A program made the translations under genes and the position numbers. Shown piece by piece: positions 2,367-56,889 of a stretch of DNA of 64,000 nt (position 1 is the first letter of the stretch; every line of letters begins with the position of its first letter). The stretch is from NCBI GenBank assembly GCA_944393175.1, contig CALXZH010000030.1, forward strand, positions 1 to 64,000. Reading direction: 5' to 3'. The stretch is from an uncultured Alphaproteobacteria bacterium. GTDB taxonomy: Bacteria; Pseudomonadota; Alphaproteobacteria; RF32; CAG-239. The notes below the pieces were generated by a model. The model worked only from the letters and a program-made list of their open reading frames with translations, had not been told where the DNA came from and made no database searches.

Positions 2367-3173
2367 ATGGAACAGATACAAGAAGAATTAAAAATCATGC
2401 CCAGAGGTTTAAGTCCGCGCAGCCTGCGCCGCGGGCGCAATATGATAGCTGTTGCCTCCGGCAAAGGAGGTGTAGGAAAGACTTGGTTTTCAATTACATT
2501 GGCGCAAGCGATGAGTGGCTTCAGGCAAAAGACCTTGCTTTTTGACGGTGACTTAGGCCTTGCCAATGTTGATATTCAGTTGGGGCTTTTGGTAAAAGAT
2601 GACTTAGGCAGTGTTGTGGCAGGCTCAAAAACACTCAATCAGGTTATTCAGCATTGCGACAAAACCCGTTTTGACATTATTGCCGGTCGTTCCGGTTCGG
2701 CAGGCTTGGCCTCTATGCCGATAGGCCGCCTGCAAATTTTGGGTGAGGATTTGTCTTTGCTGGCCTCATCTTATGATAAAGTCATTTTGGATATGGGAGC
2801 AGGCGTAGAAAAGCCAATCAGAATCTTGTCCAGCATGGCCGAAAAAATCATTGTATTATGCACCGATGAGCCCACATCTTTAACCGACGCTTATGCATTT
2901 ATCAAAATAATGTCCATGCAGTACCCAAAATCCAATATCAATGTGGTTATAAATCAGGCCAATTCATTGCGTGAGGGGCAAAGAACTTATGACACCTTGC
3001 TCAAAGCCTGCACCAATTTTTTGAAAATCAATCCGCCTTTGTTAGGCATCATCAGACGGGATGCCCGCGTACGTGACGCTATCCGTAACCAAACTCCGCT
3101 GATAAATCGTTTTCCGACCTCCGAAGCGGCCGAAGACGTGATTAACATAGCCCGCAAAATTTTGACCGAGTAA
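2367..3173 (+). CDS. flhG: Flagellar number regulator FlhG (MinD-like ATPase)
   Basis: MinD/ParA-type ATPase that restrains flagellar number and stimulates the FlhF GTPase. The deviant Walker A motif SGKGGVGKTWFS lies near residue 31 and is followed by LLFDGDLGLANVDIQLGL, which is diagnostic of the FlhG/MinD group. The 268-residue length is normal. An N-terminal basic segment (PRGLSPRSLRRGRN) precedes the ATPase domain, where FlhG proteins often carry a FlhF-activating helix. The gene sits between flhF and the FliK-like gene, with only three bases before the next start. Confidence 0.92.
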   Translation: MEQIQEELKIMPRGLSPRSLRRGRNMIAVASGKGGVGKTWFSITLAQAMSGFRQKTLLFDGDLGLANVDIQLGLLVKDDLGSVVAGSKTLNQVIQHCDKTRFDIIAGRSGSAGLASMPIGRLQILGEDLSLLASSYDKVILDMGAGVEKPIRILSSMAEKIIVLCTDEPTSLTDAYAFIKIMSMQYPKSNINVVINQANSLREGQRTYDTLLKACTNFLKINPPLLGIIRRDARVRDAIRNQTPLINRFPTSEAAEDVINIARKILTE

Positions 3174-3176
3174 GCG

Positions 3177-4781
3177 ATGAGCAGCATAATTCCCCCAATC
3201 ACCACGCCAGATATTTCCACCGGAACGGAGACGACGCTTCCCAATGGTTCAATCAATGGTTCTGGCACGGTTTTGGAGGGAATAAAACCGGGGACCAACC
3301 TGCAAATTTCCTTGCCCTCACTCTCGCAAGGAAATGTAAATCTTTCAGTCAAAATCGAGATTAATAATCAAACCTTAGAAATTCCCCTCAAATTAAATGC
3401 CAATCAAATGCCACTTCCCAATGCGTTAGACGCTGGAGAATTGCCGGCTGAAATCAAAGTCCTGAACAACCACCAAGGCGAACTTAGCTTTAAGTTTGTG
3501 AGCATTAATAACCAGTCGCCCGAAAAATTTATTGCCCCAAACAAAGTTCCAACCTCCGCTCCAGAGACTTTATCTAAGCCTCAAACCGCACCGATTATTA
3601 TGTCAGGGGCAGAAAATACCGTCCGCCCTGAAATCACCTTGCACGAAATGAGCTTGCCCAAGATACTCACTGCGCTGAGTGGAGAAAATAAATTGCCGCC
3701 GGAAGTACAAAATTTGCTTGCCGATGGCAAATTAGAATTTGCTTTTAGCAAAGTGGTGCAAACCCCCACACAATCCGCCCAACCTTTACCTTCCGACACC
3801 CAAACCGCGTTACTGAACTTAAAAACCGCACTTGCCTCGGGAGATGCTAAGGGTATCTTGTCAGCACTGCAATCTTTGCAAGGTAAAACTTTCCCGGCCA
3901 TCACCCAAACCAGAACTGATGTCGGGCTCACCTCTTTTCAAACCCCGTTAGGTGAGGTTGTAAGCCAAACTCCGCTCAAGTTAGAAAATAATTTGCCGAT
4001 TGAACTGGTGGTCAAAAATATCACGGTTAAAACTTTACCGGCAGAGGTGCTGGATACCTTATCGGCAAGTGCAAAACTATTAGAAGATATGGCCTCTCTT
4101 CCGGTCTTGAACAAAGAGCAACCGATTGTTTCCAAAAATATTTTAGAAACCCTCAAAACTCTTCCTTTGCCGCCGGATATTAAGCAAGAAGTTGTTTCTA
4201 AATTGCCGACCCCCAACAAACAACTCTTGTCCAACCTGAGCAATTTTGTAAAAGCAGCCGTTCATCAAGAAGTTAAAGAGTGGTTGGGTCCAAAACTTTC
4301 AGAGCTTATGCAAAATTCAGGTCCTGAGGGAAAAGAGGCCCTGCAACAACTAAGCCAAAGTCTAAATGCAACTCTTAAAGAGACGCCGACCTGGCGCATG
4401 GTAGAAATTCCTTTCTACACCGGAGAGAATATTGAAAAAATGCGCTTGGCTGTCAAAAAATATAATGATGACGAAGACGAAAGCCAAAATTCTTCTCGCC
4501 AAAAATACGGCACGCGGTTTTTAATCGATACCAATTTCACGCGTTTGGGGCGTTTTCAGTTCGACGGCTATTCGCTTGTCCGTGAGCGCCGTTTTGATTT
4601 GATAATTCGTACCGAAAAATTTATTGATAACGATTTATGTGCAAATTTGATGCGCATATATAAAAATACCTTACATGATTTGAATTATTCCGGAACAATC
4701 AAAATAAATGTTAAGGAAAATTTTATCAAAATCAGCGAATATGAAGAAAATAAGACTTTATCCGAAGGAATATTTATATGA
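3177..4781 (+). CDS. Putative flagellar hook-length control (FliK-like) protein
   Basis: Large 534-residue protein with a long, Pro/Thr/Asn/Gln-rich, poorly structured N-terminal part and a compact C-terminal domain. The C-terminal segment around residues 445-525 contains LGRFQFDGYSLVRERRFDL and resembles the Flg_hook domain of FliK, the secreted ruler that switches export from hook to filament. The low-complexity body and the position after flhFG fit that role. Homology is inferred from pattern and context, because FliK proteins diverge fast. The stop overlaps the next start (ATGA), which suggests co-translation with the J-domain gene. Confidence 0.6.
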   Translation: MSSIIPPITTPDISTGTETTLPNGSINGSGTVLEGIKPGTNLQISLPSLSQGNVNLSVKIEINNQTLEIPLKLNANQMPLPNALDAGELPAEIKVLNNHQGELSFKFVSINNQSPEKFIAPNKVPTSAPETLSKPQTAPIIMSGAENTVRPEITLHEMSLPKILTALSGENKLPPEVQNLLADGKLEFAFSKVVQTPTQSAQPLPSDTQTALLNLKTALASGDAKGILSALQSLQGKTFPAITQTRTDVGLTSFQTPLGEVVSQTPLKLENNLPIELVVKNITVKTLPAEVLDTLSASAKLLEDMASLPVLNKEQPIVSKNILETLKTLPLPPDIKQEVVSKLPTPNKQLLSNLSNFVKAAVHQEVKEWLGPKLSELMQNSGPEGKEALQQLSQSLNATLKETPTWRMVEIPFYTGENIEKMRLAVKKYNDDEDESQNSSRQKYGTRFLIDTNFTRLGRFQFDGYSLVRERRFDLIIRTEKFIDNDLCANLMRIYKNTLHDLNYSGTIKINVKENFIKISEYEENKTLSEGIFI

Positions 4782-12860: not shown

Positions 12861-12891
12861 AAACAATGTGTTGTAACAGGGAGTGAAGCTG

Positions 12892-13843: not shown

Positions 13844-14440
13844 ATGACAGCTCCATTAATGCCGAGAGCTACAGCGGTATGGTTGGTAGAAAATACTACC
13901 TTAACATTTAAGCAAATTGCAGACTTTTGTGAGCTCCATGAATTGGAAGTACAAGCCATAGCAGACGGAGATGTATCATTTAACATAATGGGGCTAAACC
14001 CAATTGAAACCAATCAGTTGACGGCAGAAGAAATTAAACGTTGCGAAGCCGACAAGAGAGCCGCTCTTCAAGCCAACAAATTGGAATTAAATGTTCGTGA
14101 AAAGAACGCCAAAGCCAAAAAACTTTTGTCACCGACTCAAAGAAGTGATAAACCGAGTGCCATTTTATGGATAATCAAAAATTGTCCTGAAATTATAGAT
14201 TCGCAAATTTGCAAATTAGTTGGCACCACCAAACCGACAATTGAGAGCATTCGCAGCGGTACGCATAAAGATATGGCCAATATCCGCCCGAAAAATCCGG
14301 TAGCAATCGGCTTATGTTCGGAAAAAGATTTAGAGGCCTCTCTGGCATTTTGTAAGGCAAGAGCAGAAAAAGCGGCTGCCCCGAAAAAAACAAAAAAGAA
14401 AACCAAGACAGCCAAAAAAGAAAAAAGCTCAAAAAAATAA
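13844..14440 (+). CDS. trcR: Cell-cycle transcriptional regulator TrcR (DUF1013)
   Basis: Alphaproteobacteria-specific DNA-binding protein linked to cell-cycle control. The N-terminus MTAPLMPRATAVWLVENTTL and the segments FKQIADFCELHELEVQAIADG and SAILWIIKNCPEI are characteristic. Two helix-turn-helix-like units are visible (residues 23-45 and 105-130). The tail (about residues 180-198) is almost pure Lys/Ala/Thr and probably adds nonspecific DNA affinity. The 198-residue length is normal. Own transcription unit between two terminators. Confidence 0.88.
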   Translation: MTAPLMPRATAVWLVENTTLTFKQIADFCELHELEVQAIADGDVSFNIMGLNPIETNQLTAEEIKRCEADKRAALQANKLELNVREKNAKAKKLLSPTQRSDKPSAILWIIKNCPEIIDSQICKLVGTTKPTIESIRSGTHKDMANIRPKNPVAIGLCSEKDLEASLAFCKARAEKAAAPKKTKKKTKTAKKEKSSKK

Positions 14441-14456
14441 TTGCAAAACAAAATCG

Positions 14457-14486
14457 AGCCGCCTGAAAAAAAAGGCGGCTTTTTAG
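14457..14486 (+). terminator. Terminator of trcR
   Basis: AGCCGCCT (14457-14464) pairs with AGGCGGCT (14473-14480) around an A-rich 8-base loop, followed by TTTTT. Confidence 0.85.
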
Positions 14487-14499
14487 TGTGGATACAAGA

Positions 14500-15630
14500 A
14501 TGAATACAAACACTCTGCTTCAACAATTGATACAATATTCACCGTCTCAGGAAAACAACCTCCGTTTAAGAGATTTTTTAAGCCGATATTTATCATCATT
14601 GGGATTAAGCTTTCAAATTATAGATAAAGATTACATATATGCCGGCATCGGGCAAGGCTCTCCGCATTTAATGTTTGTAAGCTATTATGATACCTTACCC
14701 ATACGCACCGAAAATTGGAGCATTCCGCCTTACCAAGGCACCATAAAAGAGGGAAAAATATATGGCAGGGGAAGTATCTCTAAAGGTTGTCTCGCTTGTG
14801 CCCTAAAGGCGGTGGAAAGCATTTTAAGCGAAAAAAGTTTTTCATATCCGCATATAAGCTTTTTGCTTTCCGCCCAAGGGACAAAAACGTTAAGTTCGCT
14901 AAAATCATCATCCCTAAAATCCATATTCAAAGAGAATAACATTCCAACATTGTGCGTATCGGCAACACCGCAAAACCAAAATTATATTGGCGAAAAAATC
15001 TCTATCGGTGCCAAGGGATGCGTCATCTTTTGCATTAAATCTTTTTCCCTCTCTGGACATCCGGCGCTCCAAGCAGAAAAACAAAATTCCTTACATAACA
15101 TGATAGATTTCCTTGCAAAAATAAAAACTTATCCCCTTGATAGCGGAAATGAGTATTTTGAGCCGAGCCGCATACAAATTTTATCCATAGAAAGTAAAAA
15201 CGGCCAAGATACGAATATCCCCGAAGAAACGCAGGCATTGGTCGGACTATACTATAATTCAGACCATCATCAGGCAGAAATTGTGGAGTGGATGAAAAAA
15301 AACATAGTATTTTCCAAAGGGGAATTTGAATTATCTTATCGTTTCGGCGCCGAAAGTTATATAAATAAACCATCATCCATGAGTGCATTACTGCAATCCT
15401 CAGTCCAAAACATTATTGGGAGCAGTCCACGCTTAAGTGGAAATGATATTCCTAATTTTGCATGGAAAATAAGTAGCTTTTGTCCGCTATTGGGGTGTGG
15501 GCTTCCCTCATATAAATTGATGAGTCGCAATGAATATATATTACAAGAAGACGCTGTAACCTTGGAGGCAATTTATCGAGAGCTGATAAAAAATTTTTTT
15601 ACTAACGCACCATATTTGGGCCAAGATTAA
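14500..15630 (+). CDS. DapE/M20-family pseudoenzyme (all metal ligands lost)
   Basis: The whole protein (376 residues from ATG 14500; an in-frame GTG at 14488 is possible) follows succinyl-diaminopimelate desuccinylase (DapE). Matching landmarks are P-HLMFVSYYDTLP, KIYGRGSISKG, IGAKGCVIFCIKSFSLSGH, DSGNEYFEPSRIQI and the C-terminal LEAIYRELIKNFF. Every catalytic landmark is altered. GHTD reads SYYD (Tyr62 for His), the GRG..DMKG Asp is absent (GRGSISKG), DEE reads AQGTK (126-129), the GEP Glu is lost (VSATPQ), and the late MH..[DN]E His is absent. The frame is undisturbed, which argues for a conserved non-catalytic role. The 3' end overlaps a convergent gene by 29 bases. Confidence 0.72.
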   Translation: MNTNTLLQQLIQYSPSQENNLRLRDFLSRYLSSLGLSFQIIDKDYIYAGIGQGSPHLMFVSYYDTLPIRTENWSIPPYQGTIKEGKIYGRGSISKGCLACALKAVESILSEKSFSYPHISFLLSAQGTKTLSSLKSSSLKSIFKENNIPTLCVSATPQNQNYIGEKISIGAKGCVIFCIKSFSLSGHPALQAEKQNSLHNMIDFLAKIKTYPLDSGNEYFEPSRIQILSIESKNGQDTNIPEETQALVGLYYNSDHHQAEIVEWMKKNIVFSKGEFELSYRFGAESYINKPSSMSALLQSSVQNIIGSSPRLSGNDIPNFAWKISSFCPLLGCGLPSYKLMSRNEYILQEDAVTLEAIYRELIKNFFTNAPYLGQD

Positions 15631-16771
15631 ATCCACTAACGCCGCCGGAGCCGCTAGAAGAACTTGTATGTTTGCGCTTATTTTCTTGTGCGGCATTTTT
15701 CATATTATCCATGGAAGTTTGATGTAATTTATCCAGTTCGGCAGCAAAATTATTTGCCTCTTTTTCATCCGATAGTTCTTCTGGCGAATTTTCTTCCGAT
15801 GGAGCACTATAAGCAGGAAAATTTTGGGCCGCGCTGTCTGTTGGCGATGCCTCAGAAGACAAAAAAGGATTTGTTAAGCTAAAATCTGTGGCCGCATCTG
15901 GTGCCGTTTCAGTCTCAACAGGTAAAATATTATTTTGTTGAGGCTCGTCTTTTTCCACTGTGTCGGCAACTGTTTGAGGAGAAGTTTCTTGAGTCTTGTC
16001 TTCAAGAGCAGAGAGCAGAGCATTAGCATCCACTCCCTCAGCTATATCATCAGCAAAGGGATTTTCTGCTGTTTCAGGGTTTTTGGAAACCACCATTCTT
16101 TTGTGGGCTGGTTTTTCAGCTTTCTGAGTTGAGGTGGTTTGCAAATTTTTCGGCATTCTTATAATTTCCACACTGTCGATAATTTCAGCAGAAGTTGCCT
16201 CGTCTCCGGCAGATGGTTTAGGAGCAAGTTGTGCCAGCACAAGCGCATTATTTGAATTTTGATTAAGTGACTGAGTTTTCAGATTTCCATCTAAATCAAG
16301 CTCAATTTTATCTTCACTGTCCATTGCAGATAAATCTTTTTCCAAATCAAGACGATAAGGAGCCTTGCCGGATTGTGCGATAGCATTTAAATCTTGCAGA
16401 TAAGCGTCATATTCTTTTTGGTAGGTAGGTGTATTGTTAGACTGATTATTTTCATTTGAAGTCGATGATGATAAATCCACGTCAAGAGTTGGATCAAATT
16501 CAGGTTCTTGAGGTATAGGGGCTTGTTTTTCTTCTACCGGATGAAAAGTAGGTTCGTTAACTTTCTCAATAGATTGAGGAGAAGTTGTGTCTTCTTGTTT
16601 TGGCAGATTGAACGGGGGCAGCTTTTCTCGATATTCCACATCTTGCTTAGGCACAAAAAAATCTGGAGCAGGCAAGGGTTTTCTGACATATCTTTCTTGA
16701 GCATAAGTCATTGTTGAACAGTGTAAGCAAATCCCAAACAGCGCAACGGAAATAAGAAGAGATTTTTTCAT
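15602..16771 (-). CDS. Secreted low-complexity protein, unknown
   Basis: A signal peptide (residues 1-24, ending TYAQ) is followed by about 350 residues rich in Glu, Pro, Asn, Ser and Thr without recognisable domains. Acidic and Pro-rich tracts suggest an extended periplasmic or surface protein. The C-terminus has a short Ser/Gly stretch (SSSSGSGGVSGFNLGPN). It diverges from the HExxH gene with 56 bases between starts and overlaps the DapE-like gene at its 3' end. No function can be assigned. Confidence 0.6.
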   Translation of the reverse strand: MKKSLLISVALFGICLHCSTMTYAQERYVRKPLPAPDFFVPKQDVEYREKLPPFNLPKQEDTTSPQSIEKVNEPTFHPVEEKQAPIPQEPEFDPTLDVDLSSSTSNENNQSNNTPTYQKEYDAYLQDLNAIAQSGKAPYRLDLEKDLSAMDSEDKIELDLDGNLKTQSLNQNSNNALVLAQLAPKPSAGDEATSAEIIDSVEIIRMPKNLQTTSTQKAEKPAHKRMVVSKNPETAENPFADDIAEGVDANALLSALEDKTQETSPQTVADTVEKDEPQQNNILPVETETAPDAATDFSLTNPFLSSEASPTDSAAQNFPAYSAPSEENSPEELSDEKEANNFAAELDKLHQTSMDNMKNAAQENKRKHTSSSSGSGGVSGFNLGPNMVR

Positions 16772-18759: not shown

Positions 18760-19677
18760 TCAGAAAGAAGCAACGCACACAACTTTGTGAAAAGCGTCTT
18801 CTGCACATTGAGAATAGCTTTCGGGATAGTTTTGACACTCTCTAGTGAAATCCGAACAAGGACCATATCCATCTGTCGTAAATACCCAATACCCTGTTGT
18901 GGGAGTGGAATTACATATATTTGAATATAAACTTGAGGTTCTAGAGGCGAGGTTTTTTACTTGATACATAGAAGCCAAAGTCCAATTAAGTCCGCCGACT
19001 TTGTAATTTTGGCAAAGCTCTGAAGCCTTCTCTTTTGTTGTCATACCGGCTAGAGTTGCAACCTTGCCTGATGAAGCACTTGTCAGCTCAATTATAGTTC
19101 CGACAACAACATCGTCCACATAGTAAGAACCTCCTAAAGTAATCGGATGCACTATTTCGGTTGCCCCAAACATTGGTGGGAGCAAATTTGTAATTTTACC
19201 TGAAGAATCACAACATCCAACCACACCGTAATTTGCGGCAAATTGCCATGCGGATTGACAAGTTAAGCTATCGGAATATGATATAGAGCTAGTAATACCA
19301 CTGACAGGTCGTGCATGTGTTGCACGACAAGTAAGAGCTGCCACATTAAATCTTATCTTATATGACCCGATAACATTAGTATTATAATTACAATTATTAA
19401 CCATATTCGAACCTGGATCGGAAATAGTGATGTAATATCCACTTGTGCAAGGATATTCTACCTTTTTATAAGTTAATTGAGGACAATAAACTTTCGTTTT
19501 ATCAAACGGGCATTTTAAATACTTTGTCGTATCGTCACAATCATCTTCTGTCATATCATATCCTAATTCTTCGCAAGTCGGTGGCACGACGCAGGTTTGC
19601 GCTCTGACTTGTTCAACGGAGAAAGCTGTCAATAAAAACAGCATTGCTCCTGCAACTATCAAATTCCTTTTATTCAT
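18760..19677 (-). CDS. Cys-rich secreted protein with FGE/DUF1566-like C-terminal region
   Basis: Signal peptide residues 1-26 (ending VRAQ). The N-terminal part has paired cysteines (CEELGYDMTEDDCDD, YLKCPFDKTKVYC). The C-terminal part (about residues 215-305: GLNWTLASMYQVKNL, TGYWVFTTDGYG) resembles the DUF1566/lectin-like fold of surface proteins. Even spacing of about 18 Cys implies periplasmic or extracellular disulfides. It lies 18 bases downstream of a second Cys-rich gene on the same strand, so the two form an operon. Function unknown; surface adhesion is a guess. Confidence 0.6.
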   Translation of the reverse strand: MNKRNLIVAGAMLFLLTAFSVEQVRAQTCVVPPTCEELGYDMTEDDCDDTTKYLKCPFDKTKVYCPQLTYKKVEYPCTSGYYITISDPGSNMVNNCNYNTNVIGSYKIRFNVAALTCRATHARPVSGITSSISYSDSLTCQSAWQFAANYGVVGCCDSSGKITNLLPPMFGATEIVHPITLGGSYYVDDVVVGTIIELTSASSGKVATLAGMTTKEKASELCQNYKVGGLNWTLASMYQVKNLASRTSSLYSNICNSTPTTGYWVFTTDGYGPCSDFTRECQNYPESYSQCAEDAFHKVVCVASF

Positions 19678-19695
19678 TAGCTTTCTCCTTTTAAG

Positions 19696-20622
19696 TTATT
19701 GAAACCAGCACCTTAAGGCACCGTCACACCAATAATTATCCAAATCAACCGCGCCGACCGCGCAACCTGTCGCGCAATATTTTTGTGAACATTCTTCCAA
19801 TGTACAGGTGACACCGGACGGACAAACATCCAGCGTGCATTTGTTTTCACAAGTTTTGCAGTTATTGTAATATTTAATACCGTCTTTTAAGCAGTAATCC
19901 GTCGGTGCAACCGGCCCGAGGTCGTCGCAGGTCATATTGTAACCTGATTTACATTGACAAGAGGTATAGTAGGTTACGCCGTTTTGAGTGCACCCCGTTC
20001 CGACACCTTGTTGATTTAAGCCGTCGCAAGTCTGATTATAGTTACTTGGACAAACACATTTTCCGTAATAAGTTTTTCCCTCTTCCGTACAGCTTCCTCC
20101 TGATGTTACTTGCGGTGAAGGACAACTGGTCACCGAATATAAACTTTTATCGCAATAACACATATATTTACCGCCGCAACTGTCACCACTCACGGTATTA
20201 GGATAAGAACATTCGCTTTTACTATATTTGTAGCGCGCATCACAGCACTCCTTAAAATAAGTACTGTTGTAAGGACAGGGCGATGTCGGGGTACCGCTGG
20301 AACAAGATGTTAAAGAATAACCTAAATTTTTACAGGTCTGCGGGGATTCATCGGTAAATACCGGCTGAGAAGTTTCAAAAGTGAGCCCGCCATCACTGGC
20401 AATAAAAGAAACATTTGCGGTTTGAAAAGAAACACGATTGGGCAAGTCTGCAAACAGACTTGCCCCGACAAAAGGTTCAAAGGTTTGGCTTTGACTGGTT
20501 TCTACGAGGTGCGTGTATTTCTGATGAGCCTCTTGAGAATGAACCGAAACAAAATTTTTATTTACGCCGCCCAATCCGGTAAGCGCAAACAACGATAATC
20601 CTATCGCAAGCTGCTTTCTCAT
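19696..20622 (-). CDS. Secreted protein with tandem Cys-rich repeats
   Basis: Signal-like N-terminus (residues 1-25), a stretch to about 100 without Cys, then roughly four repeats of about 32 residues. Repeat cores are SGGSCTEEGKTYYGKCVCPS, GTGCTQNGVTYYTSCQCKSG and TDYCLKDGIKYYNNCKTC; each carries the pattern C...G..YY..C.C....Y..TC. The last 45 residues are also Cys-dense. It probably forms a disulfide-stabilised rod. A good ribosome site (GGAG, six bases) marks the start. No characterised family is recognised. Confidence 0.6.
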   Translation of the reverse strand: MRKQLAIGLSLFALTGLGGVNKNFVSVHSQEAHQKYTHLVETSQSQTFEPFVGASLFADLPNRVSFQTANVSFIASDGGLTFETSQPVFTDESPQTCKNLGYSLTSCSSGTPTSPCPYNSTYFKECCDARYKYSKSECSYPNTVSGDSCGGKYMCYCDKSLYSVTSCPSPQVTSGGSCTEEGKTYYGKCVCPSNYNQTCDGLNQQGVGTGCTQNGVTYYTSCQCKSGYNMTCDDLGPVAPTDYCLKDGIKYYNNCKTCENKCTLDVCPSGVTCTLEECSQKYCATGCAVGAVDLDNYWCDGALRCWFQ

Positions 20623-20739: not shown

Positions 20740-22518
20740 TTAGTTCTTTGATTTTTTTTCGTAAGTTGCTTCAATTATTCGACTCTGACGTAGCTCATCT
20801 AAATCATAGTTAGCTTTTAGGTTAAGTTGCGGCGCAATTTCCGAAATGATTTTGCCGGCAGTAGGTACGGCGTTCCAGCCCGAAGTTACAAATCCCCAAG
20901 TTTCTTTTAGAGGTTTGGGCTCATCCATCATCATAAAGAAAGCATATTTCGGATTAGAGGCAGGAAAAGTTGCCAAGAAAGAGGTCATAACTTTTTTATC
21001 AACATATTTACCGTTCATAAGTTTGTTTGCAGTTCCTGTTTTTCCGGCTACTTCATAACCCAACACATTAGCTCTTTTACCGGAACCTTTGGTAACCACG
21101 CCGCGCAGGAGCTTGCGCATTTGCAGCGATGTATTAAACGAAACCACTCTTTTGCTCTCTTTGGCCGAACCGTTTTTAACCAAAGTCGGTGCATGATAAA
21201 TACCGCCGTTAACAATAGCCGAAAAGGCACTGATGAGGTGTAACGGCGTGATAGAAATACCATATCCGTAACCAACCGTAGCGGTTGTTTCTTCACCCCA
21301 GCGTTTTTCAGATGGAATGAGGGGCACGCCTTTTTCAGCAACTTCAATACTGTGAACGGGAGTAAAGAATCCAAGATTACTCAAAAACTTACGTTGTTCA
21401 CTCTTGCCGACGGTCAAAGCAATTCGGGCCGAGCCGATATTGGAAGAATAAATTAAAATTTCGGGCAAATCGAGCCAACGATTCTCACCTCTATAATCTT
21501 TAATGGTGTTATAGCGGAGTTTGAAGGGCTTTGTTGCATCCCATTTATCGGTAACTTTAACTTTCCCGCTTTCCAAACCCATTGCGGCATTAAAAATTTT
21601 CAGAACAGACCCCGGTTCATAGACGCCTTTGGTTGCAAAGTTAAACAAGGCTCTGTCAGGAACATTGTTCATCATATTCGGATCATAATCAGGTAAAGAA
21701 AGCATAGAAATAATTTCGCCGGTATTCACATCCATTAGGATAGCGGCAGCTCCTTCGGCATGAAATTTATCAATTGCAGCTTTAAGCTCCTCACGAATGG
21801 TATCTTGAATACCGGAATCAATGGTCAGAGCTAAGGGAATATCAGATTGAGTGAGGCGTTCGTCCAACTCTTTTTCCATACCGGCGATACCTTTGTTGTC
21901 AATATTTGTAGACCCCAGCAGCTGGGCAAAGAGTTCTTTGTGCGGATAGATACGCTTTTCACCGTTTTCAAAATCTAACCCCGGAATACCCAAAGCATTT
22001 ATTTGATATTGTTGTGAAGGGGTCAGATTTCGTTTAATATAAACGAAAGTACTTCTTCTCTGGAGTTTATCTAAAATATCTTCATATCTGATGTCTGGCA
22101 AAATAGCGCTGAGCTTAGCGGCAGCTTTTACTTTGTTTGGCACTTTTTTAGGGTTGGCATAAAGATTAACCGTGGGCAAAGATGTGGCAATAATAGTTCC
22201 GTTTCTATCTAAAATATCGGCACGTTTAATAGGGTTTTCAGCGTATGTAAAGAGATGTTGCGATTCTTCGTCCTCTTCCAGAGCGGCTGTTTTGTGTATT
22301 CCGCCGGATAAGCAAACGTCAAACAAACGAATACTGATAACCAGATAAGCAAAAATAAAGAGCAAAGTGGCGAAAGCGACACGATTTTTAACGGTAGTTA
22401 AAGGATCCCCGTCAAAAATATGGTTGCTGAACATATCATCTCTATCGATTCTTATTTCTTCCCCCGGAAGATAGAAATGAGAGTTCTTCTTTTTGGAAAA
22501 ATACTTCCCCAATAACAT
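20740..22518 (-). CDS. ftsI: Division-specific peptidoglycan transpeptidase FtsI (PBP3)
   Basis: Septal cross-linking enzyme, 592 residues. One N-terminal membrane segment near residues 47-67 and a PBP dimerisation domain are followed by the transpeptidase domain: SVLK (in GVYEPGSVLKIF), SSN (YSSNIGSARIA) and KTG (VAGKTGTANK). It is the last dcw gene here; murE, which commonly follows, is absent. Transcribed with ftsL, rsmH and mraZ. Confidence 0.93.
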   Translation of the reverse strand: MLLGKYFSKKKNSHFYLPGEEIRIDRDDMFSNHIFDGDPLTTVKNRVAFATLLFIFAYLVISIRLFDVCLSGGIHKTAALEEDEESQHLFTYAENPIKRADILDRNGTIIATSLPTVNLYANPKKVPNKVKAAAKLSAILPDIRYEDILDKLQRRSTFVYIKRNLTPSQQYQINALGIPGLDFENGEKRIYPHKELFAQLLGSTNIDNKGIAGMEKELDERLTQSDIPLALTIDSGIQDTIREELKAAIDKFHAEGAAAILMDVNTGEIISMLSLPDYDPNMMNNVPDRALFNFATKGVYEPGSVLKIFNAAMGLESGKVKVTDKWDATKPFKLRYNTIKDYRGENRWLDLPEILIYSSNIGSARIALTVGKSEQRKFLSNLGFFTPVHSIEVAEKGVPLIPSEKRWGEETTATVGYGYGISITPLHLISAFSAIVNGGIYHAPTLVKNGSAKESKRVVSFNTSLQMRKLLRGVVTKGSGKRANVLGYEVAGKTGTANKLMNGKYVDKKVMTSFLATFPASNPKYAFFMMMDEPKPLKETWGFVTSGWNAVPTAGKIISEIAPQLNLKANYDLDELRQSRIIEATYEKKSKN

Positions 22519-53320: not shown

Positions 53321-54514
53321 TTATAATTTACTTCCTTTGCTCCCCTTTGCGCCAAAACTTCCGGCCTGAGCCAGCACATTTGTATCAAAAGAGTACACAA
53401 TTTCAGATTCTTTGCGCTCTCTCTTAAGTGCTAAGTTGATAAGGTGCGTTAATAACTCTTTGTATTTAATACCCAAAGGCTCCCACAAATAAAATGAAAG
53501 TGAGCCCGGAATTGTATTAATCTCGTTAAAGTAAACTTTTCCCTCATCTTCATCAATCATAAAGTCGATTCTGGCAACGCCGTTGCAATCCAGATATTGA
53601 AAAGCCTTCACGGCCATTTCCTGAATATATTTCTTTTGTTCGAGAGAAATATCGGCCGGAATTTTGCGCTTCAAACTCTGCATACCCTTAGAGCCGGAGG
53701 ATTTTGCGCCGTCACCCATATATTTATCTTGGTAGCTGAGAATTTCATGCGAGGTGAGGGGCTCTTCACATTCTGAAGCTGATGCTTCATCACTGTCGCC
53801 CAAAACCGCACAGTTAATTTCTTTCAAATTGGTAATTGCGCGTTCAACCAACACCATATCGGCAAAACTAAAAGCCGTATCTAAAGATTTCACCAAAGCC
53901 TCTTTGTCATCGGCGCGAGAAATACCGATACTGGAACCAAGGTTAACGGGTTTCACAATCACCGGATAGGCAAATTTTTTCTCAATCTTTTCAATAACTT
54001 GTGTGGGCTCTTGATAATCGTGAGCATTAAAGCGCAAGCAATCCAACACCGGAAAACCTGCTTCTTTGAGCATAATTTTCATGGCAAATTTATCCATGCC
54101 CAAGCCGGAGGCAAAAACACCGCACCCCACAAAAGGAACATTAAGAGTTTTCAAAAATCCTTGCAAAGTACCGTCTTCAACATTTGTCCCGTGAACAATC
54201 GGGAAAGCCACGTCAAATTCATCCAAAACCTTTTTGCCAAACAGCTTAAAAGGATATTTAATGATTTTGTGCTTGATACCGTCATTGACCAAAATCACTC
54301 TTTGGCATTTTTCCAGCAAGGATTTGATGTTGCGATATTCATTAATATTACGCAGAGCCTCCCCAAAATAAAATTCATTATTTTTGGTTAAATAAAGCGG
54401 AATAATGTCATATTTCTCGGTATCCATATTATTCATGGCTTGAACGGCAGAAATAATGGAAATTTCATGTTCGGTGCTCTTACCGCCGAAAATAACCGCA
54501 ACTTTAATTTTCAT
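53321..54514 (-). CDS. ddl: D-alanine--D-alanine ligase (Ddl)
   Basis: ATP-grasp enzyme for the terminal dipeptide of peptidoglycan precursors. FGGKSTEHEISIISA, HGTNVEDGTLQG, VKPVNLGSSIGI and NEINTIPGSLSFYLWE are family motifs. The Lys-Tyr pair in YQDKY corresponds to the D-Ala-selective site of E. coli DdlB, so D-Ala-D-Ala is favoured over D-Ala-D-Lac. 397 residues is long; an insert near 250-290 and a Gly/Ser/Lys tail account for it. Diverges from the hydrolase-MurF pair. Confidence 0.88.
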   Translation of the reverse strand: MKIKVAVIFGGKSTEHEISIISAVQAMNNMDTEKYDIIPLYLTKNNEFYFGEALRNINEYRNIKSLLEKCQRVILVNDGIKHKIIKYPFKLFGKKVLDEFDVAFPIVHGTNVEDGTLQGFLKTLNVPFVGCGVFASGLGMDKFAMKIMLKEAGFPVLDCLRFNAHDYQEPTQVIEKIEKKFAYPVIVKPVNLGSSIGISRADDKEALVKSLDTAFSFADMVLVERAITNLKEINCAVLGDSDEASASECEEPLTSHEILSYQDKYMGDGAKSSGSKGMQSLKRKIPADISLEQKKYIQEMAVKAFQYLDCNGVARIDFMIDEDEGKVYFNEINTIPGSLSFYLWEPLGIKYKELLTHLINLALKRERKESEIVYSFDTNVLAQAGSFGAKGSKGSKL

Positions 54515-54608: not shown

Positions 54609-55364
54609 GTGCGCACCACAATCAAAGGAATAAATATCAATTATCAAAGCCAAGGCTCGGGCGAACTGGTCTGTTTGCTCCATGGCTGGGGAGCCAATAT
54701 CAAGCTCTTTGAAAATATCATTAATATCATCTCTTGCCGGTATCATGTCGTGGCATTGGATATGCCCGGCTTTGGTGAGAGCGAAGAACCGCCGCAGGTT
54801 TGGTCGGTCGATGACTATGCCGATTTTGTGGTGGAGTTCATTAAACTTTTCAAAGCCGATAAGGTAATTTTGCTGGGGCATTCTTTTGGTGGCAGAGTTA
54901 TTATCAAACTCAATGCCAGGTCAAATTTACCTTTTAAGATAACCAAAAACATCTTGGTCGATTCGGCCGGAATTTTGCCCAAACGAGGCCTAAAATACAA
55001 ACTAAAGGTTGGACTTTATAAACTAGGCAAAAAGTTCATCAAGTGTTTTCCCTTTGCTTTGAATTATTTTCAAACCAAGTTTGGCTCGGCTGACTATGCG
55101 GCGGCATCACCCATCATGCGGGGTTGCTTGGTCAAAGCCGTTAATGAAGATTTAGAACCCTTATTGCCGCAAATCACGGCAGAAACCTTGTTAATCTGGG
55201 GCGATAAAGACACTGCCACACCTTTGTCTGATGCCAAAAAAATGGAAAGCCTTATCAAAGGCTCAGGTTTGGTGGTGTTTGAAGGCGCCGGGCACTATTC
55301 GTTTTTGGAGCAACCTTATCTTTTTGCGCGTGTTATCAAGTCTTTTTTGAATATTGGAGAATAA
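54609..55364 (+). CDS. Alpha/beta hydrolase between ddl and the MurF-like gene
   Basis: 251 residues, GTG start. Nucleophile elbow GHSFGG, acid GDKDTATP and His in GAGHYSF form the Ser-Asp-His triad. No signal peptide. The stop lies one base before the MurF-like ATG and the genes share the GGAG site region, so they are co-translated. The substrate is unknown; linkage to precursor ligases suggests peptidoglycan or envelope metabolism. Confidence 0.72.
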   Translation: MRTTIKGININYQSQGSGELVCLLHGWGANIKLFENIINIISCRYHVVALDMPGFGESEEPPQVWSVDDYADFVVEFIKLFKADKVILLGHSFGGRVIIKLNARSNLPFKITKNILVDSAGILPKRGLKYKLKVGLYKLGKKFIKCFPFALNYFQTKFGSADYAAASPIMRGCLVKAVNEDLEPLLPQITAETLLIWGDKDTATPLSDAKKMESLIKGSGLVVFEGAGHYSFLEQPYLFARVIKSFLNIGE

Positions 55365-55365
55365 A

Positions 55366-56889
55366 ATGTCAGCACCAATCATTTGTTTTGTTTTGGGAGC
55401 TTGTGCCACACTTTTGGCTCTGCGTTATTTTACCCACATGTTTCAGCTCAATGCTTATAAGCCCAAAGTCCAAACCAAATGGCTGGCTCATAATCTCCAT
55501 CGTTCTTGGAGTCAAATTTTAGCTCTTCTGCTGGGTCTCATAGGCTTAAAAATAACACTTAATCCTTGGGGAGTGAGTGCCTTGTTCGCTCTTTTTTGCT
55601 GGGCAATGTGGCCAAAATCAGCCAAAAAGCGCCTCGTCTATACCCACAGGGTTGATAGATTGCTCTTCACTGCCGTTGTCTTGCTGGGCTTAATGTTTTA
55701 TTGCGCTTGGGTCCAAAATATAGCTTGGTTGCCCTTGGCTTACGGTTTGGTCGGTATAGTCGTACTCGTTGCCAACTATATCAATATGCCTTTTGAAGCC
55801 TGGAGAAGACATTGCTATATCGTCAAAGCCAAAAAGATTTTGCGCTCATGTCCTAACTTGCTCACCATCGGCATCACCGGCAGCTATGGCAAAACCAGTG
55901 TAAAATACTATCTCAACACCTTACTGCATGCGTCTTTTAATTCTTTGATGACGCCCGAAAGTTACAATACCCCGATGGGAATTGTAAAAACCATAAGAGA
56001 ATACTTAAAATCCACCGATGAAGTCTTTGTCTGCGAAATGGGGGCGCAAAATGTCGGCGATATTAAGGAATTGTGCGATATTGTCCACCCCAAACACGGT
56101 ATTATCACAGCCTTGGGCGCACAACATCTGGAGAGTTTCAAAACCCAAGCCAACATCATCAAAACCAAATATGAATTGTCAGATGCTTTGCCCCAAGACG
56201 GATTTTTGCTCGTCAATGGTGATAATGAGCTTATTCGTAACAATCCGCCCAAACACAAGTATCAAACTTATGGCTTGGGCAAACATAATGACTACCAAGC
56301 AACAAATGTCAAAGTCTCTTCCCAGGGAACGAGCTTTACTTTTGTAACGCCAACGGGTGAAAAATGCGATTATCAAACCCGCCTGCTTGGAGAGCATAAT
56401 ATCATCAATCTGGCAGGGGCTCTGGCAATGTGTAGTTTACTGGGTATTCCGCTTGCCAAACTAAAACCCCAACTCCTAAAAATCAAAGCCGTTCCGCACC
56501 GCTTAGAATTAACCGAGCATGGTAAAATAACGATTATTGATGACGGCTTTAACTCTAACCCGAGCGGAACCAAAGCCGCCCTAAAAACTTTGTCTTTGTT
56601 TGATGACTACAAAATCATCATCACCCCGGGAATGGTTGAACTAGGCGAGCAAGAAAACAGCCTCAACCAAGCCTTTGGTGAGGATATTGCAAAAGTTTGC
56701 GACTATGTGATTTTGGTAGGCGAAAAACAAACCTTACCCATCAAGTCAGGACTGGAAAAAGCCAATTACCCCGAAAGTAAAATCTATATAGCCAAAAGCC
56801 TAAAAGATGGCTTGCAACATGCCTATGCGCTGAACTGCGAACGCAAAAAAATCATTTTGCTGGAAAACGACTTGCCGGATAACTACTAG
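55366..56889 (+). CDS. Membrane-anchored MurF-like Mur ligase
   Basis: 507 residues from ATG 55366 (GGAG six bases upstream). About four membrane helices in residues 1-145, then a Mur ligase: P-loop GITGSYGKTS, EMGAQNVGDIKELC, the LLGEHNIINLAGALAMC segment and a C-terminal domain with DDGFNSNPSGTKAAL. The catalytic core fits UDP-MurNAc-tripeptide:D-Ala-D-Ala ligase. Canonical MurF is soluble; the membrane part is unusual for this class. Could be the only MurF or a second, specialised one. Ends in TAG. Confidence 0.78.
   Translation: MSAPIICFVLGACATLLALRYFTHMFQLNAYKPKVQTKWLAHNLHRSWSQILALLLGLIGLKITLNPWGVSALFALFCWAMWPKSAKKRLVYTHRVDRLLFTAVVLLGLMFYCAWVQNIAWLPLAYGLVGIVVLVANYINMPFEAWRRHCYIVKAKKILRSCPNLLTIGITGSYGKTSVKYYLNTLLHASFNSLMTPESYNTPMGIVKTIREYLKSTDEVFVCEMGAQNVGDIKELCDIVHPKHGIITALGAQHLESFKTQANIIKTKYELSDALPQDGFLLVNGDNELIRNNPPKHKYQTYGLGKHNDYQATNVKVSSQGTSFTFVTPTGEKCDYQTRLLGEHNIINLAGALAMCSLLGIPLAKLKPQLLKIKAVPHRLELTEHGKITIIDDGFNSNPSGTKAALKTLSLFDDYKIIITPGMVELGEQENSLNQAFGEDIAKVCDYVILVGEKQTLPIKSGLEKANYPESKIYIAKSLKDGLQHAYALNCERKKIILLENDLPDNY

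Follow-up and report, generated by a model that had tools for sequence, protein, structure and literature searches.

A former dapE gene kept under purifying selection after loss of its metal ligands, with constraint moved to the dimerization domain

What becomes of a gene whose product has lost the residues of its catalytic site, yet whose reading frame stays open? The question is raised by a locus in the window, as we call the whole 64,000-nucleotide stretch of DNA analyzed here, which derives from an uncultured alphaproteobacterium (host genome G000; 1.63 Mb in 36 contigs, 95% complete). A preliminary description had taken the encoded protein for a full-length relative of DapE, and its open reading frame, frame, and coordinates prove right (table 1), with an in-frame GTG at 14488, upstream of the start at 14500, that would lengthen the protein by four residues. 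Profile, PDB sequence, and fold searches agree on the assignment. Among curated models, those for DapE match best: NF009557 (171.4 bits; protein residues 3-368 against profile positions 5-376 of 377) and TIGR01246 (144.7 bits). Both scores are far under the respective equivalog cut-offs (284 and 361.8), so the protein does not score as an active DapE. Both M20 domains, PF01546 and PF07687, are over the gathering score in Pfam, and the PDB sequence search returned M20 deacylases and peptidases only, the top match being DapE 3ic1 (E 3e-27). A predicted model of the window protein finds its closest match, covering both domains, in DapE structures (Foldseek E 1e-22; VIA Z ~22 across ~330 residues). 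A second model, of the orthologue from G035 with three distant M20 proteins added to the alignment, agrees on a DapE-like fold; confidence in the models is low to moderate (mean pLDDT 61, a low value, and 69, respectively), which counts against the reading that we favor below. Thus, catalytic and dimerization domains in a predicted M20 fold support descent from DapE, and a fold outside M20 is ruled out, the top PDB sequence and fold matches being DapE and other M20 enzymes.

The dinuclear zinc site of DapE is formed by two His, two Glu, and one bridging Asp (PMC4012986). An alignment of the window protein to 14 intact DapEs from its bacterial family shows that all five ligands are replaced (by Tyr, Ser, Thr, Thr, and Met) and that the general base has become Gly. 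The preliminary description had recognized each of these losses: the HTD His (now Tyr), the DMKG Asp, the DEE and GEP glutamates, and the late His. Its wording that every ligand is replaced holds for the window copy and can be refined, since the HxD Asp is kept and the late His survives in three orthologues of the same genus. Counting ligands and general base together, six of six positions are replaced in the window copy and five of six in these orthologues; the late His was lost in the window species only, and every other ligand loss is common to all four proteins, hereafter the dead orthologues.

Table 1. Features of the dapE-derived locus and wall-gene loci (window positions unless a locus is named).
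Feature	Position	Strand	Basis or remark
trcR, syntenic upstream neighbor	13844..14440	+	
Terminator-like hairpin between trcR and pseudoenzyme gene	14456..14481	+	Equivalent in 4/4 genomes
dapE-derived pseudoenzyme gene (376 aa)	14500..15630	+	ORF call, Pfam, NCBIfam, PDB sequence search, fold
Catalytic domain, first part (residues 1-171), metal ligands lost	14500..15012	+	Alignment
Y62 instead of HxD metal-ligand His	14683..14685	+	Alignment
D64, second Asp of HxD, retained	14689-14691	+	Alignment
S94 instead of bridging DMKG Asp; adjacent one-residue motif deletion	14779..14781	+	Alignment
Q126-G127-T128 instead of D-E-E (general base, metal ligand)	14875..14883	+	Alignment
T156 instead of metal-ligand GEP Glu	14965..14967	+	Alignment
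Dimerization (lid) domain (residues 172-288)	15013..15363	+	Best-conserved part among dead orthologues; limits from HiDapE (PMC4012986)
Catalytic domain, second part (residues 289-376)	15364..15627	+	Alignment
M341 instead of late metal-ligand His	15520..15522	+	Alignment; His present in three congeneric orthologues
Convergent gene overlapping pseudoenzyme 3' end	15602..16771	-	Also adjoins intact DapEs of genera g2, g10, g11
Wall-gene locus	20740-22518	-	
Wall-gene locus	53321-54514	-	
Wall-gene locus	55354-56889	+	
Wall-gene loci, L090	1924-3291, 3261-4172		

The distribution of relatives provides clues on where the losses occurred. We surveyed 126 genomes of the bacterial family, seven of them from the genus of the window species. 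A DapE above the NF009557 cut-off is present in 16, and 14 of these belong to one close-knit type. Some M20 match occurs in about nine-tenths of the 126 genomes; the widespread one is an ArgE/DapE-like paralogue of ~370 residues, with ligand motifs intact in all 17 copies aligned (L025, L026, L030-L044). Targeted searches, from which the gene inventory of the window genome was compiled, returned the window protein as its sole M20 protein, and so no separate intact dapE was found there. A second M20 match was likewise not found in G045, and G035 and G076 carry the intact ArgE/DapE-like paralogue. Syntenic orthologues, 45-48% identical to the window protein, are carried by G035, G045, and G076 out of six further genomes of the genus, and the gene order around trcR is identical in all four. 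The changes shared with three separately assembled relatives rule out an assembly artefact. No orthologue was found in the other three genomes of the genus; on the corresponding side, trcR is flanked by other genes in G069 and by the contig end in G029. The trcR protein of G029 (L074:191-1174) and G069 (L075:5176-6120) is longer by a C-terminal extension (314-327 versus 198 aa). No relative that would deepen the alignment was found among viral contigs.

At the corresponding locus of G010 (genus g11), G024 (g10), and G016/G001 (g2) lies an intact DapE, followed by the same downstream genes, and in G010 and G024 trcR lies upstream of it. In the phylogenetic tree the four dead orthologues cluster together with support of 100/100, their stem measuring 3.7 changes per site; placement of this cluster with g10 and g2 has weak support (64/96). 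Given the same-locus intact DapE in three genera and the shared losses, the simplest course is a single loss of the ligands at this locus, along the branch leading to part of the genus.

The locus also differs in a neighbor. A divergent GNAT acetyltransferase gene lies upstream of the intact DapE in 12 of the 12 genomes with that flank assembled; outside this count stand G077, with both genes at the ends of different contigs, and G001, whose contig starts at dapE. The GNAT gene is missing from the dead locus. A GNAT paralogue is found elsewhere in G000, G035, and G045, but it is 45-47% identical to the query, whereas the dapE-linked ones are 63-76% identical among themselves; the linked gene was thus probably lost in the pseudoenzyme lineage. 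Divergent pairs of GNAT and intact DapE-like genes are also seen at different loci in eight genera (L076-L088; e.g., L079:1474-2247 and 2489-3634). Such a pair is a putative two-gene acylation/deacylation module, in a family whose genomes yielded no dapD.

Has the gene then simply been left to decay? The preliminary description argued that a randomly decaying gene would not have kept its frame. From one copy this argument is insufficient, but it holds once four orthologues are considered, whose frames are all open at synonymous divergence near saturation (dS ~1.8 or more); this also rules out a recent pseudogene. Overall dN/dS is 0.12-0.18 in those pairs that allow an estimate, the values being rough since dS is saturated in most pairs. 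For G035 and G045 it amounts to 0.12 overall (lid, 0.03; catalytic parts, 0.11-0.22), and in neutral simulations at the divergence of these two species ~17 in-frame stops are expected per lineage, with none of 200 simulated copies staying open. The gene thus encodes a conserved homologue under purifying selection that lacks the catalytic residues, that is, a pseudoenzyme whose inactivity is predicted from sequence.

The constraint has, in addition, moved. The ratio of catalytic to lid distances is 2.42 in the dead proteins (95% interval 1.77-3.43) versus 1.01 in the intact ones (0.78-1.32), and the ratio of the two ratios was never ≤1 in the bootstrap. The most conserved contiguous stretch among the dead orthologues is on the lid, which is 85-93% identical among three species despite near-saturated synonymous sites, a conservation measured on four sequences from few lineages. 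Moreover, 53 residues are shared by all dead orthologues and rare among the intact relatives; 30 of them lie in the lid, where they make up 25.6% of the sites versus ~9% elsewhere. Conservation is among the lowest in the stretches 136-150 and 286-315. The gene is the former dapE of this locus, kept under purifying selection with its constraint moved to the dimerization domain.

The main rival to a conserved new role is a slower decay, in which a dispensable former dapE persists under weak selection, its frame kept so far and no definite new role acquired. The gene does appear dispensable, being absent from three of the seven genomes of the genus (two of the three only 76-81% complete). It also evolves much faster than most, though not all, of its neighbors (~47% identity versus 91-93% for trcR and the gene at 12883), as weak selection would allow; many family-invariant residues of the catalytic domain are lost; the partner GNAT is gone; and the window copy additionally lacks the late His and any clear ribosome-binding site. 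Similarly, although the preliminary description correctly placed the gene next to trcR, a terminator-like hairpin separates the two in all four genomes, inside a spacer of 54-65 bp, and the pseudoenzyme gene starts only 13-24 nt past it. This position counts against the reading that we favor and, together with a promoter search at the gene that gave nothing above chance, makes its expression uncertain. Nevertheless, slow decay is difficult to reconcile with the failure of every simulated neutral copy to stay open, with the identity retained by the lid at near-saturated synonymous sites, and with 53 derived residues fixed in four of four orthologues, and we consider it rather unlikely. Fast evolution is seen in other genes beside the pseudoenzyme: those at 15602-16771 (-) and 18760-20622 (-) encode fast-evolving, exported-looking proteins, the latter two Cys-rich, and show ~35-60% identity between species in which trcR identity exceeds 90%.

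Is the substrate of DapE still made in these bacteria? By profile search, none of the 126 genomes surveyed has a dapD over the cut-off. The profiles for dapB, dapF, ddh, and one dapL model (TIGR03540) were under cut-off in nine genomes, including that of the window, where control profiles matched. The succinylase route (dapD, dapB, dapF) was thus not recovered from the window genome, and murE was under cut-off in the genomes tested. From these results, these bacteria probably do not make the old DapE substrate. Just two Mur ligases each turned up in seven of eight genomes (that of the window and six others of the family among them). Of the two in the window genome, the first resembles MurF and has an N-terminal hydrophobic region; the second is MurC-like (312.9 bits versus 335.1), its gene adjoining an LdcA-like gene. 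MurD and MurE were not found there, and Ddl and an FtsI-type transpeptidase are present. We infer that wall peptides are salvaged in this lineage. With the pathway genes under cut-off and such salvage likely, the intact DapEs of the family may themselves act on a substrate other than succinyl-DAP.

In this context, a role in binding DAP-containing or other muropeptides, as the preliminary description suggested, deserves attention, as handling imported wall peptides would be useful to a lineage apparently without DAP synthesis and MurE. The old pocket argues against it. The residues proposed to contact the substrate in HiDapE are H194, R179, R258, and T325 (PMC4012986). In this numbering, R258 is replaced by Tyr, T325 by Pro, R179 by Lys, and the neighboring R178 by Ala in all four orthologues, and H194 is retained in the window copy only. 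The pocket is not the conserved part of the protein, constraint having left it for the dimerization domain, and a signal peptide is not evident by eye. We regard muropeptide binding as improbable. A new enzyme, in which a metal-free or differently placed active site has replaced the zinc site within the same fold, seems less probable still. Possible catalytic residue types do occur among the derived invariants (H118, C152, C174, E193, D203, and E260), and the HxD Asp is retained; however, the derived residues are mostly in the lid and not the pocket, and the two poorly conserved stretches named above speak against a new site as well. We know of no metal-free M20 enzyme, which we also count against this possibility.

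The reading that we favor, with a probability of roughly 0.6, is that of a conserved pseudoenzyme, a (homo)dimer that serves through its lid for binding or as a scaffold. The ancestral dapE at the trcR locus lost its metal ligands in place, and the linked GNAT gene probably disappeared; the protein would have been kept as a DapE-like dimer without catalytic zinc, hydrolyzing nothing, whose lid surfaces bind a putative partner or ligand in the manner of a scaffold or regulator. Since G000 and G045 yielded no second M20 match, a heterodimer with another M20 protein is ruled against, and a homodimer or binding to an unrelated protein is expected rather than to a DapE paralogue. The conserved, noncatalytic, and not freely decaying protein envisaged in the preliminary description is thereby borne out by the open frames, the purifying selection, and the constraint on the lid. 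More tentatively, we put forward that the lid of the dead DapE might have become a new protein-binding module in a salvage-wall lineage without DAP synthesis, the losses of the GNAT gene and of the zinc site being one linked event; this we offer as a conjecture and hold to be doubtful.

Searches of open-licence full texts for DapE, pseudoenzyme, and M20 together found no such case, and those on M20 nonpeptidase homologues, nicastrin-type pseudoenzymes, and murein auxotrophy in the lineage gave nothing directly relevant. The locus offers a natural case in which a pathway that is usually essential was lost and one of its enzymes then became a conserved nonenzyme, with intact relatives in the same chromosomal place for comparison; it shows which domain selection kept, namely the dimerization domain, in alphaproteobacteria with small genomes. 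It also calls for caution, as automatic annotation as "succinyl-diaminopimelate desuccinylase" predicts a DAP pathway that these bacteria apparently lack.

Among known systems, the closest is DapE itself, the M20 N-succinyl-L,L-diaminopimelate desuccinylase (H. influenzae 3ic1, 5vo3). The window protein resembles it over the full length, in the two-domain fold, and in a locus shared with the intact DapE of neighboring genera, but differs in lacking the five metal ligands and the general base, in the replacement of the substrate Arg and Thr, and in a genome with DAP genes under cut-off. The GNAT-paired, intact DapE-like M20 enzymes of the same family are direct homologues, found in the same place in g2, g10, and g11, and, unlike the window protein, have kept all metal ligands and the GNAT partner. 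The transferrin receptor and nicastrin are noncatalytic members of clan MH, related to M28. They likewise use a zinc aminopeptidase-type fold without a metal site for binding; however, they are M28-type, eukaryotic, and membrane-anchored, whereas the window protein is a bacterial M20 member in which the dimerization domain is the part conserved.
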